A stretch of DNA of 64,000 nucleotides from Nanobdellota archaeon (lineage in GTDB: Archaea > Aenigmatarchaeota > Aenigmatarchaeia > QMZP01). The stretch's first letter is position 1, and each line of letters opens with the position of its first letter. Made by a program: the position numbers and the translations under genes. Shown one piece after another: positions 28,280 to 37,946 of this stretch. The DNA is taken from assembly GCA_018816245.1 (NCBI GenBank), contig JAHIVW010000004.1, forward strand, positions 1 to 64,000, read 5' to 3'. Below the pieces are notes generated by a model, which saw nothing but the letters and a program-made list of their open reading frames with translations, ran no database searches and had not been told where the DNA came from.

Positions 28280-28798
28280 TCAAAACAATCCTTCCCGAAC
28301 CTCTTTTGTAAACCGGATCATATTCGTTTTTCCATAATCCTCTTTTTCCAAAACCCCGCGTTCAATGAGCCGCTTGATGATCCGGTGCGATCGCACCTTA
28401 CTCAGACCGGGCAATCGGGTAATTTCAGCCTGCAGAACCTTGCCGTTATTTTCAATCAGGCGGTTGATGACAATTCGTTCATCCTTGTTGAAGAACCGGA
28501 GGAGGATCTCTGTATTTTTTTTGAGCAAGCTTTCTTTCACGGTGATCCGCTGGGACATGAAATAGAAGGTTCCTGCTCCTGCCATGACTCCGAAGCCAAC
28601 GAGCAGGGGAATCAACTCCGTGAGGAACACGACCTGCTCCTCATGGGGACAATCCTCCCCGCAACTGGTCATTTCGAGAGCGAGCGATGCGTCGCGGAAG
28701 ATGTTCGACGCAGCGAAGGCGAATATCAGAAGTCCTACGATAACAAGAATGCCAGCCAGAAACTTTCGGTTTTCTTTCATGCATTCCTTTTCGTTCAC
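28280..28798 (-). CDS. Membrane-anchored winged-helix regulator
   Basis: A 172-residue protein. Two N-terminal helices (FLAGILVIVGLLIFAFAAS and LTELIPLLVGFGVMAGAGTFYFM) bracket a short loop containing CGEDCPHEE, a possible metal- or redox-sensing Cys-x3-Cys-x-His. The C-terminal winged helix (FFNKDERIVINRLIENNGKVLQAEITRLPGLSKVRSHRIIKRLIERGVLEKEDYG) should bind DNA. Such one-component membrane regulators are common in archaea. It likely responds to an envelope signal and may control the PH-like gene or the divergent exported cluster. Confidence 0.75.
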   Translation of the reverse strand: MNEKECMKENRKFLAGILVIVGLLIFAFAASNIFRDASLALEMTSCGEDCPHEEQVVFLTELIPLLVGFGVMAGAGTFYFMSQRITVKESLLKKNTEILLRFFNKDERIVINRLIENNGKVLQAEITRLPGLSKVRSHRIIKRLIERGVLEKEDYGKTNMIRFTKEVREGLF

Positions 28799-28909: not shown

Positions 28910-29515
28910 ATGAAATCCATTGTACTCGGGTTCCTCGTGGCAACGGTCGCCCTCATGGGGGGAGCGCTTGCCTGTGGCGAGAAGGACATCCAGTTTGTTG
29001 CTTCCTTGGAAGACAGTCAATACGTGATGGAGAAGTCATCCTGCACGGAGCTGTACTTCCCCAGCAACGGAGAATCCTTCCTGCTGGAAGAAGCCGATGT
29101 GCTCGTTACTGATCACCAAGCAAAACACATCCTTGAGTATTACCTCAGGGAAACGTATGGACCAGATGCGGCGATCACGGAGGGAGAAACAGAAGTGCCT
29201 GGCCATGAAGATCACCATCACGGCCACGGAAACCCGCAGCTCTCCCATGGTCACTACGCGTGGTCATTCAATGTCGTCGTGCCAGGGATGATGGACGGAA
29301 AGGCATTCCCGCTTTTTGTTGACATGCAAAGCGGGGATGTGTACGGCATCGGTTGTGGGTTCGGTGCAGGTGATGTCGTGTTCCATCCTGACCTGGCCGA
29401 CTATCCTGATGATGATCAGTCAGATGAAGCATACCACATGGACGATCAAGAAGAACTGCATGCGGCATGGGACCTTTCAACAATGTGGGGGTTCCTGACC
29501 CAGTTTTGGAGGTAA
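28910..29515 (+). CDS. Exported His-rich protein
   Basis: A 201-residue protein with a signal peptide (MKSIVLGFLVATVALMGGALACGE). Cleavage is likely before or near Cys22, so a lipoprotein-like anchor is possible. A metal-binding-looking EDHHHGHGNPQLSHGHYAW lies near residues 99-117, and an acidic DYPDDDQSDEAYHMDDQEE stretch near 163-181. It may bind transition metals outside the membrane. It starts the run of Cys/His-rich exported proteins to 30944. No family known to me. Confidence 0.72.
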   Translation: MKSIVLGFLVATVALMGGALACGEKDIQFVASLEDSQYVMEKSSCTELYFPSNGESFLLEEADVLVTDHQAKHILEYYLRETYGPDAAITEGETEVPGHEDHHHGHGNPQLSHGHYAWSFNVVVPGMMDGKAFPLFVDMQSGDVYGIGCGFGAGDVVFHPDLADYPDDDQSDEAYHMDDQEELHAAWDLSTMWGFLTQFWR

Positions 29516-29520
29516 TGTGA

Positions 29521-30192
29521 ATGAAGTATAGTGTTGGTGTCCAGTATGCGCTGCTGATAATTGCGGCAACGCTTATCGTATTCAATCAAGTTAGCCTGGC
29601 AACCCTGCACCCAGGACAGATGGTCACCGCGGCACCGGCAACAGATAAAACGAGTTTTGCCTATGCAGCGAGCGGTGATCCCGTCCAGGACGCGATTGAC
29701 GCTGTCTTGTTTACCGGATCGCCCGCCTGGAGCGATGGAAGCATTTCGTACGACGATATCGAGGGAAGCCTCGAAATCCTTGGGAACCTCGATCGGACAA
29801 TCCCCCTTGAATCACTTCCGGCGGATCTCAAAGAACGGTACATCGCCATTGGATCAAAGATTTCGTGTGAATATTGTTGCACAGCACCTTCGGTGATCTT
29901 CCCGGACGGGAATCCGGCGTGCGGCTGCTCGCATTCCTTTGCGTTGCGGGGGATTGCAAAGTACCTGCTCACCCAGTACGGCGATTCCTATACGGATGAG
30001 GAGGTCCTGTTTGAAATGACCGTCTGGAAGAACCTCTTCTTCCCGAAGAACACCGTTGAAAAGGCCGCGGCGCTGATTGCAAACAGGATGGATATCACGC
30101 CTGACGCACTGAACGATCACACCCTGTTGGAAAAGATTCAGGCCGGTGATCTCGGCTCGATTGGTGCTCCGGGCATGGTAGGAGGCTGTTGA
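29521..30192 (+). CDS. Exported Cys-rich protein ending in MVGGC
   Basis: A 223-residue protein with an N-terminal hydrophobic anchor (VQYALLIIAATLIVFNQVSL). The core SCEYCCTAPSV ... GNPACGCSHSFALRGIAKYLLTQYG ... WKNLFFP resembles an uncharacterised archaeal family with CxxCC and CxCxHS motifs, probably a metal or Fe-S site. The last residues are GAPGMVGGC. The next protein (30228-30440) ends in the same MVGGC. Placed 5 nt after the His-rich protein. Role unknown. Confidence 0.75.
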   Translation: MKYSVGVQYALLIIAATLIVFNQVSLATLHPGQMVTAAPATDKTSFAYAASGDPVQDAIDAVLFTGSPAWSDGSISYDDIEGSLEILGNLDRTIPLESLPADLKERYIAIGSKISCEYCCTAPSVIFPDGNPACGCSHSFALRGIAKYLLTQYGDSYTDEEVLFEMTVWKNLFFPKNTVEKAAALIANRMDITPDALNDHTLLEKIQAGDLGSIGAPGMVGGC

Positions 30193-30227
30193 TTTATATG
30201 TCTCAGCGTAAATCAAGGAGGAATACT

Positions 30228-30440
30228 ATGAAGGATGCCATCATCATCGTGGCGCTGCTCGCCCTTATTGTTTTCTCGGGCGTACAGGCCATGGAGATTG
30301 CAACCGTGAGAGGAAGTGAACAACATGCACTTGCAGACACCGCGCCTGACCCCACTCCACCAACCAAAACAAGCGATGCCGGTGCCTACAACCTTCCCAG
30401 CAATCTCGAAAACCTTAATGACATGGTCGGCGGCTGCTAA
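30228..30440 (+). CDS. Small exported protein ending in MVGGC
   Basis: A 70-residue protein from ATG 30228, chosen over upstream codons because AAGGAGG sits 7 nt before it. The N-terminal helix MKDAIIIVALLALIVFSGVQA is a signal or anchor. A short, Pro/Thr-rich spacer (DPTPPTKTSD) leads to NLENLNDMVGGC. There is no folded domain. It looks like a carrier for the C-terminal motif. Confidence 0.7.
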   Translation: MKDAIIIVALLALIVFSGVQAMEIATVRGSEQHALADTAPDPTPPTKTSDAGAYNLPSNLENLNDMVGGC

Positions 30441-30449
30441 GGTACCTTT

Positions 30450-30944
30450 ATGATTTGCATTATTTCTCTTGTTGTTTTTTCAGTACTAGGACTGTTCTCA
30501 GCAAAGTACCGGTCCCTTGCCCGGATGGCGTTTAGCTGCGTCACCCGACGCCTGACGTTCCGCCCGTGTGAAATGGCATTTGACCAGAAGGTCCGGATGA
30601 AGCTCGTGGCAAAGCTGTCGGGAAGGTCTATGCCCCTCGCACGCTTTGTGAACAAGCGCTTCCAGATCCTCTCCTGGATCTTTACGGTCCTCCTGTTCGT
30701 AAGCCTCGCGTTCACCTCCTACAGTCTGTACAACCTTGCGGTATATGGATCCTGCGACCCCCACTCGGATATCTGCTACCTCAACCCGGCAACCTATCTC
30801 ACGGGTGGCGTCCCTGATTGCGGCTCCCAGCACTGTACTGAGGAAGGGTGTGACTGCGGCCCCCAAGACACGAACTGCACCCAGGAGAATAACTACACGG
30901 CCTGCGAGGGGAATTGCGACTGTAACGAGACGATTTGCGGCTAG
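30450..30944 (+). CDS. Membrane protein with Cys-rich tail
   Basis: A 164-residue protein. The N-terminal helix MICIISLVVFSVLGLFSAKYR is followed by a basic cytoplasmic segment with FSCVTRRLTFRPCEMAFDQKVRMKLVAKL. A second helix (ILSWIFTVLLFVSLAFTSYSLYNLAVYG) leads to an outside tail with at least a dozen cysteines (CDPHSDIC, CGSQHCTEEGCDCGPQDTNC, CEGNCDCNETICG). I recall similar proteins in DPANN genomes, where they are uncharacterised. A redox or metal role is inferred from the cysteines and from the neighbours. Confidence 0.75.
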   Translation: MICIISLVVFSVLGLFSAKYRSLARMAFSCVTRRLTFRPCEMAFDQKVRMKLVAKLSGRSMPLARFVNKRFQILSWIFTVLLFVSLAFTSYSLYNLAVYGSCDPHSDICYLNPATYLTGGVPDCGSQHCTEEGCDCGPQDTNCTQENNYTACEGNCDCNETICG

Positions 30945-36485: not shown

Positions 36486-37946
36486 ATGAAAAGGGTGCTC
36501 GTTTTTCTTGTGATTATTGCAAGCTTTCTGTTTGTCCCGTCGGCCTCGGCAACGGTCCTCTACAATGCTACGGTCTCAGGAACTGACGTCCTGGTTGACG
36601 CAACAATCGAACTCTATACAAGCGAACCCGGGAACAAGGTGAACTACTGGCAGACTGAACTCTCGCTCCCTGAAAAGAGCAAGATCATTTCGCTTGCTGA
36701 TAGCCAGGGAGTAATCAATGACTATACATATGCCAACAGCCTTCTCATGATCACGACGAACAAGGGGGCCGCGCGCGAGAAAGAAGTGCTCGATCTCGTG
36801 TTCCGGATTCCCTCGGTGGTCACCACCGAGTTCCCGCCACTCTCAAGTATGAAACTGAACTTTTCCGGGTTTGCGGACGTGAATCCGGAGAAGCCGGATG
36901 AACAGACGTTCGTCGAAATCAGGACGCCGATCCGGCTTGTCTTTGCAGACGCGTCCTACGGCTTTGTGACGCAGAGCACGGAGAAGATTGCCCAATTTTC
37001 CGGTTCAGGAGCGGTCGGGGTAACCGTCTGGTTCGGCAGCGGCGGAACGGAGTACGAGCACTACCTTGTTTTTGGGAATGGTGACGCGGCGGCGGCGGAT
37101 GCTGATTTTTCCTTGCTTGAAACAACACTGGGGATCAGGCTGCCTGGCGTCAAGTATCCGGTCATCGCCTTGAGTGAAGAAAATTACAATAGAAAGGTGA
37201 ATCCATGGAGTGTCGGCCAATACCGGAACGGGATTCTCTTCATTCGGGAAAACCAGAGTACTACCCCGACCGGAACCGCGACCCTGCTCCACGAAACCGT
37301 CCATGCCGTGAACGGGCGGTTGCTCCGCTTCGTGCCAGGAGGGGTGGCATGGTTTGACGAAGGCGTTGCCCAGTATGTGGAGTTCCTGGAGAAACAGAAG
37401 CTCGGCGTTCACCAAGCACAACTCTTTGGGGAGAAAGTTACTTGGGCAGCGGGAAATCTTGTCTACACCCTCGCTCCCCGCGGCAAACCGAATGAGTTAT
37501 GGTCCTATTACCAGCTCAACGAAGATATCATGAACAAGTGGACGCCGGAAACCCCGGCAACGCGGACCTTCGGCTACGCACTTTCAGAGCTTGTCATCAG
37601 AGAGTCGGTTCTCAGGAACGGACCAATGATTCTGACAAATCTCTACACCTCACTCCCGGAAGGGGAAATGAGCAGTGCTGTTGCGACCACTTATTTGCTG
37701 AGCAAACTGAACACAGACCTGCGGCCCTGCGACGCTGACACAATCGATGCAATGAAATCGTGTCTCGCAGCGGTCAATGCGATGGCTGCGCCGCTCCCCG
37801 GCGACACCCCGGAAACCATTGATTCAGGATCGATTGTCCTGCCAGACATTACGCCACCGGAGATCGATCTCAGTTTCTTGGAGACGCTTGTTGAATGGTT
37901 CCGGCAGGCAGGGGACTGGCTGCGCGGCCTCTTTGAGATTGCCTAG
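36486..37946 (+). CDS. Exported gluzincin metallopeptidase
   Basis: A 486-residue protein with a cleavable signal peptide (MKRVLVFLVIIASFLFVPSASA). An N-terminal beta-rich domain (to about 160) precedes the peptidase part, which has HETVH near residue 270 and WFDEGVAQYVE about 20 residues later. This is the HExxH + E arrangement of gluzincins (M1/MA-like). A C-terminal amphipathic helix pair (FLETLVEWFRQAGDWLRGLFEIA) may touch the membrane. Likely degrades extracellular protein; substrate unknown. Confidence 0.8.
   Translation: MKRVLVFLVIIASFLFVPSASATVLYNATVSGTDVLVDATIELYTSEPGNKVNYWQTELSLPEKSKIISLADSQGVINDYTYANSLLMITTNKGAAREKEVLDLVFRIPSVVTTEFPPLSSMKLNFSGFADVNPEKPDEQTFVEIRTPIRLVFADASYGFVTQSTEKIAQFSGSGAVGVTVWFGSGGTEYEHYLVFGNGDAAAADADFSLLETTLGIRLPGVKYPVIALSEENYNRKVNPWSVGQYRNGILFIRENQSTTPTGTATLLHETVHAVNGRLLRFVPGGVAWFDEGVAQYVEFLEKQKLGVHQAQLFGEKVTWAAGNLVYTLAPRGKPNELWSYYQLNEDIMNKWTPETPATRTFGYALSELVIRESVLRNGPMILTNLYTSLPEGEMSSAVATTYLLSKLNTDLRPCDADTIDAMKSCLAAVNAMAAPLPGDTPETIDSGSIVLPDITPPEIDLSFLETLVEWFRQAGDWLRGLFEIA

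Follow-up and report, generated by a model that had tools for sequence, protein, structure and literature searches.

Two adjacent genes of a Nanobdellota archaeon encode exported proteins which end in the same five residues, Met-Val-Gly-Gly-Cys, and this raises the question of what the identical tail is for. Within the window, i.e. the entire 64,000-nucleotide stretch of DNA analysed, both open reading frames are present and terminate in M-V-G-G-C, as an initial annotation of this DNA had pointed out. Its description of the smaller protein as a helix, a Pro/Thr spacer and the tail likewise holds, since this protein consists of a membrane helix, a Pro/Thr/Ser linker and MVGGC. The pair comprises the following features:

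29521..30192, + strand: large MVGGC protein, 223 residues, with an N-terminal membrane helix, a helical Cys-rich ectodomain and a tail predicted to be disordered
29530..29604, + strand: residues 4-28 of the large protein, predicted to form its N-terminal membrane helix and related to the helix of the small protein
29866..29934, + strand: conserved centre C-E-Y-C-C ... C-G-C-S-H within the large protein, comprising C116, C119, C120, C134, C136 and H138, from the alignment
30175..30192, + strand: MVGGC tail codons and stop codon of the large gene
30214..30220, + strand: AAGGAGG, the ribosome-binding site for the small gene, distinct in the sequence from the GGAGG within the tail codons of the large gene
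30228..30440, + strand: small MVGGC protein, 70 residues
30234..30293, + strand: membrane helix of the small protein, ending like its family in V-Q-A-x-[QE]-I (alignment; Q at least 90% conserved)
30423..30440, + strand: MVGGC tail codons and stop codon of the small gene, including the only cysteine of the protein

Conservation of the tail

In a protein search of 100 relatives, 14 proved to encode a homologue of the large protein and, wherever the contig is readable, a small tail protein is encoded near each of these homologues, with the exception of the short variants L018 and L019 described below. An alignment-based scan of 84,980 species genomes returned 251 loci, 80 of which were kept. These stem from MAGs labelled Woese-, Aenigmat-, Pace-, Micr- or Nanoarchaeota, Diapherotrites or simply archaeon, and include one 'Bacteroidetes' MAG which may be mis-binned. 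The exact MVGGC end is present in 72 of the 80 large-protein relatives and in all 92 tailed small partners encoded at these loci.

The tail is spelled ATG GTA GGA GGC TGT TGA in the large gene and ATG GTC GGC GGC TGC TAA in the small one and, as these codons differ, it is not a DNA repeat. Across the 80 relatives the codons for V, G, G and C as well as the stop codons vary freely, third positions included; hence, selection acts on the peptide. That the tail is a nucleotide feature, either the Shine-Dalgarno GGAGG of the next gene or a repeat, which incidentally encodes VGG, can practically be dismissed. Although many large genes contain GGAGG in their tail codons, its frequency is not raised by a short distance to the next start (26/33 vs 22/35, p 0.19), and a Shine-Dalgarno origin is ruled out by the free third codon positions together with the small gene's own AAGGAGG further downstream.

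Among 156 genomes of the same class, MVGGC followed by a stop codon is found at 41 sites in 23 genomes, compared to 1 site for a reversed-pattern control, and these sites are mostly paired at distances below 1 kb. The large family is encoded in 23/23 MVGGC genomes vs 34/156 overall (Fisher 1.5e-19). In the archaeon's own genome a pattern search located MVGGC-stop solely in the two proteins of the pair; of its 16 GGNGGNTGYTRR sites only this pair represents convincing genes, three others falling into short or implausible open reading frames. A genome harbours one to five tail carriers, nearly all of them in one cassette. MVGGC is therefore a cassette-specific tail, and its reading as a general sorting signal is rejected owing to this restriction. 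Of the expectations attached to the initial annotation, the one that homologues end alike is largely borne out, while an enrichment of GGC on exported proteins in general is not observed. A literature search retrieved no relevant paper containing 'MVGGC'.

The two protein families

Residues C119, C120, C134, C136 and H138 of the large protein are invariant in an alignment of 57 sequences, and C116 is conserved in at least 90% of them. Based on this alignment, AlphaFold2 predicts (pLDDT 88) a membrane helix, a helical domain built around CxxCC...CxCxH and a disordered tail, the last residues reaching a pLDDT of only about 41-56. Profile searches with the large and small proteins, in which their window neighbours were included, gave no Pfam or NCBIfam match for either, and none of the 57 large-family members has a Pfam match at E<=5. 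Neither a PDB sequence match nor, by Foldseek, a PDB fold match at E<=0.001 was obtained for the large protein, which represents an undescribed helical family with a CxxCC...CxCxH core. A short variant of it occurs at L018, L019, L147 and L156, where the YEEMMQAHHG of the small protein is fused ahead of a reduced PCC...CxCGHH core and the chain ends in GACG or GSCSA.

The small family comprises 92 tailed members with a median length of 78 residues. In the shortest ones, 50 residues long, only the helix, a Ser/Ala/Gly linker and MVGGC are left. The terminal Cys is the only extracytoplasmic cysteine of the small protein in 92/92 tailed members. His/Met-rich motifs (GWTxNEKMNYExHGxxPAR or YEEMMARMHPDQ) are present in 33 small proteins, and in 17 a Cys-pair motif lies in the part presumed to be cytosolic.

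The earlier statement that the two proteins share no similarity apart from their tails is not quite right, as their N-terminal membrane segments turn out to be related at the family level. Both display the pattern [FV][NQ]xxQIxxL, and hhalign assigns a probability of 86% (P 5e-6) to their relationship, whereas the controls, a further two membrane families encoded at these loci, reach 9% and 3%. In addition, the GWTxxEKMxYExHG motif of the small proteins is also carried by some large ones. In view of the related helices, the sequences make it probable that the two proteins are built on one anchor-and-tail frame, with the domain of the large protein as an insertion.

Variation of the tail

Eight of the 80 large proteins lack MVGGC and end in ...NLASNKYR(G)xEN or similar. 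Their small partners end in MVGGC in five cases and in QVGSC in two (L041, L042); in the remaining one (L085) the small open reading frame is truncated. Wherever a tail-less large protein has an intact and readable neighbour, this small protein invariably ends in GGC or GSC (cassettes L040, L046, L057, L062, L069, L010, L013, L014, L147-L150, L152 and L153), from which it follows that the arm can act in trans.

Divergent cassettes exhibit the tail variants QIGGC, QVGGC, QQGGC(G), MQGGC, GVGGC, GIGGC and MVGSC. Invariance is highest for Cys, followed by Gly, while position -5 is M or Q and rarely G. Changed tails (QVGGC, QIGGC, QQGGC) tend to occur in both partners of a cassette: a Q at position -5 of the large tail is accompanied by a Q in the small tail in 4/4 cases vs 1/77 otherwise (p 3e-6; 5e-5 if lineages are counted, of which there are three independent ones since L145 and L146 belong to one genus). 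This concerted variation of the sequences suggests a single receptor common to both tails; it may also reflect gene conversion.

The tail might also be a docking or quality-control peptide read by a PDZ-like or protease domain, the Cys then having no chemical role. The hydrophobic M/Q-V/I followed by an invariant C-terminus does resemble a recognition peptide, and an M-to-Q exchange would suit a pocket. PDZ ligands, however, normally end with a hydrophobic residue, nothing PDZ-like recurs at the locus, and it is the Cys which is most invariant, being retained even where the adjacent Gly is replaced by Ser (QVGSC, MVGSC). We consider such a role very unlikely.

Cassette neighbours

The genes flanking the pair in the window are these:

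28280..28798, - strand: membrane-anchored winged-helix protein of the MarR/DUF7343 type (PF24034, E 1.8e-8) with an external C-x3-C-P-H
28910..29515, + strand: exported His-rich protein (GHEDHHHGHGN) directly upstream of the large gene, assigned to the cassette by adjacency only
30450..30944, + strand: membrane protein whose ectodomain is rich in Cys, encoded directly downstream of the small gene; tblastn matches to it lie close to the cassette in L064, L113 and L106

In 66/80 relatives the locus includes a member of the MarR/DUF7343 family, and the window protein itself has tblastn matches in 22 loci. It is the probable regulator of the cassette and possibly senses the metal or redox state outside the membrane. 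The His-rich protein, for which tblastn found no relatives in the fetched loci, is a possible member of the operon. Elsewhere in the window, at 36486-37946 (+ strand), an exported protein with HETVH...E is encoded which resembles a zinc metallopeptidase.

A conserved membrane protein with four helices (A-HCPLC, e.g. L046:10996-11529) is a neighbour in 50/80 loci and occurs in five further instances as a rhodanese fusion. An invariant HCPxC follows its signal sequence, so that His-Cys-Pro-x-Cys may form the N-terminus of the mature protein. It is predicted by AlphaFold2 with a pLDDT of 92, and a Foldseek search returned no PDB fold match at E<=0.001. DsbA is encoded in 23/80 loci, and HMA and CcdA-like proteins recur as well.

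This neighbourhood raises the question of whether the tail cysteines merely form intermolecular disulfides at the cell surface, between large and small or between two small proteins, which the CPLC-type membrane protein and DsbA-like proteins keep up, without any direct role in metal handling. One external Cys per small protein and one tail per partner would fit this arrangement, as would the DsbA and CcdA-like proteins nearby and the HCPLC that invariably follows the signal sequence in the common neighbour. Yet the five cysteines of the large core would compete with the tail, and tail-less large proteins still pair with tailed small ones. Moreover, a plain Cys would suffice for a disulfide, and M-V-G-G would not be fixed over such distances; the strong linkage to Cu-ATPases outlined below is left unaccounted for as well. 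This explanation thus appears unlikely to us.

Linkage to copper genes in relatives

Within 10 kb on either side of the 80 relatives, Pfam searches identified DUF411 in 38, the Cu-ATPase CopA in 36 and a cupredoxin in 23 cases. Among the class genomes, a Cu-ATPase above the cut-off is present in 20 of the 23 genomes with MVGGC and in 40 of the 133 without it (p 3e-7). In 17 genomes carrying the large family this ATPase is located on the same contig at a distance of 0.6-17 kb, mostly below 4 kb. DUF411 is confined to 5 class genomes, all of which are MVGGC-positive (p 5e-5). The initial annotation had recommended looking for a co-occurring enzyme gene; a conserved processing enzyme was not recognised, but Cu-ATPase and DUF411 genes are linked to the pair in relatives.

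In the archaeon's own genome, which is 88% complete, neither DUF411 nor an HMA domain is present, and none of the P-type ATPases exceeds the copper cut-off. For this reason we argue the involvement of copper from the relatives, and the cassette in this genome is reduced to a minimal set of regulator, upstream His-rich exported protein, MVGGC pair and downstream Cys-rich membrane protein.

Comparison with known systems

As the initial annotation had maintained, the tail fits no known archaeal system. Substrates of archaeosortases and exosortases carry a motif, a membrane helix and a basic end at their C-terminus, and there are many of them per genome. The proteins concerned (PGF-CTERM, PEP-CTERM, GlyGly-CTERM) resemble the MVGGC pair in that a short conserved C-terminal motif is borne by exported proteins. 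MVGGC, however, constitutes the very end of the protein in the window pair and in 164 relatives, and the one to five carriers share one locus. A lipobox (of the L-[AG]-[AG]-C type, with its Cys directly after the signal helix) is not present, the first Cys being residue 116 in the large protein and residue 70, the last one, in the small protein. Prenylation motifs of the CaaX or Rab type (CaaX, CC, CxC) are placed on cytosolic proteins, whereas GGC follows an N-terminal membrane helix; ubiquitin-like proteins and ThiS are cytosolic beta-grasp proteins ending in Gly-Gly, whereas here a Cys follows GG, the large protein is anchored in the membrane and its predicted fold is all-helical.

A dedicated signal for sorting, lipidation, ligation or cleavage may nonetheless be envisaged, read by an enzyme that would add a lipid, a cofactor or a partner protein to MVGGC or set a peptide free. 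The extreme C-terminal position, the near-invariance and the concerted variation of both tails would agree with this, as would a short G/S/A/Q-rich linker reminiscent of processed tails and the occurrence of one tail on two unrelated-looking carriers. On the other hand, no hydrophobic or basic segment follows MVGGC, and no recognisable processing enzyme is conserved beside the cassette in the 80 loci. Archaeosortase was considered as the reading enzyme and rejected, PF09721 being found in 11 of the 23 genomes with MVGGC and 85 of the 133 without it (p=0.17); the own genome encodes one member of this exosortase/archaeosortase family at C4:395005-395454, on another contig and unlinked to the cassette. 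The restriction to one cassette, the N-terminal anchors which both proteins already possess and the missing association with archaeosortase weaken the notion of a signal, which we regard as distinctly unlikely. From the initial interpretation, the selected C-terminal Cys motif on exported proteins is retained, but a general sorting or lipid-attachment signal is not; crosslinking or cofactor loading, also proposed there, is a possible function, with copper genes co-occurring in relatives.

Three systems are similar to the pair in other respects. In the mercuric reductase MerA a flexible C-terminal thiol arm takes up the soft metal and folds into the Cys site of the opposing monomer (PMC4500099). 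The resemblance to MerA concerns the manner of working only, there being no sequence relation; MerA bears two Cys on a cytosolic flavoenzyme, in contrast to one terminal Cys on membrane-tethered envelope proteins devoid of a flavin domain. DUF411/CopG is likewise a Cys-rich envelope protein of copper operons, its genes occur in the same cassettes, and it binds a Cu4 cluster through CxCC (PMC7558416). It is, however, thioredoxin-like, whereas the large MVGGC protein has a different, predicted all-helical fold and no DUF411 match. The PCYCGC family (PF13798) is exported, helical, rich in Cys and His and present at some of these loci (L072); homology to the large protein was rejected at an hhalign probability of 3%, and a viral scan for PCYCGC gave no matches.

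Proposed role of the pair

The MVGGC pair is a real and hitherto undescribed motif and module, conserved at the protein level and absent from Pfam, NCBIfam, the PDB and the searched papers. Metal/thiol trafficking is the best-supported reading of its kind. Specifically, we propose, with a probability of roughly one half, that the pair forms an envelope metal/thiol relay with a C-terminal thiol arm tethered to the membrane, the cargo most likely being Cu(I). Judging from topology, both proteins would be anchored by their N-terminal helix with the C-terminus outside. The large protein would supply the helical domain with its conserved CxxCC...CxCxH centre, and the small one would serve as a tether whose flexible linker presents a single solvent-exposed thiol, the terminal Cys of [M/Q]-[V/I]-G-G-C. 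The tail could then behave as a swinging arm in which the hydrophobic M/Q-V/I dock into a receptor pocket, G-G confer flexibility and the Cys either ligates the metal or passes it (or sulfur or a disulfide) on to a Cys centre, this being the presumed direction of transfer. The most likely candidates for the receptor would be the Cys centre of the large protein itself and a copper protein from a neighbouring gene, and the large protein's own tail may be an optional second copy of the arm.

The observations in favour of this relay are the peptide-level conservation of the motif, the exclusive pairing of the small proteins with the large family, the retention of small tails beside tail-less large proteins, the single exposed Cys, the predicted tail disorder, the concerted variation and, in relatives, the linkage to copper genes. 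Against such a copper/thiol relay stand the missing copper genes of the own genome and the eight large proteins without a tail. Specificity for copper is further called into question by the HCPLC protein, the rhodanese fusions, DsbA and CcdA-like proteins, which would suit thiol-redox or sulfane-sulfur chemistry equally well. A strict Met-Cys copper site is weakened as a candidate: since Gln or Gly can stand at position -5, Met is not an obligatory ligand.

A more far-reaching idea, which we put forward tentatively and consider somewhat doubtful, is that MVGGC acts as an address label for a single, still undiscovered receptor or enzyme by which the two tethered proteins are loaded, ligated or docked via their identical terminal cysteine. 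Tails and receptor would co-evolve in what would be a new thiol "plug" system on the DPANN surface.

Implications

The pair constitutes a conserved module of two proteins whose terminal cysteine peptide is invariant. It is spread across several DPANN phyla and offers an unusual case in which two different proteins have had their five C-terminal residues jointly fixed by selection. As such it provides a testable handle on copper or thiol handling at the surface of these reduced archaea. If the tail indeed served as an address label, it would represent a new C-terminal docking or ligation system on the DPANN surface.
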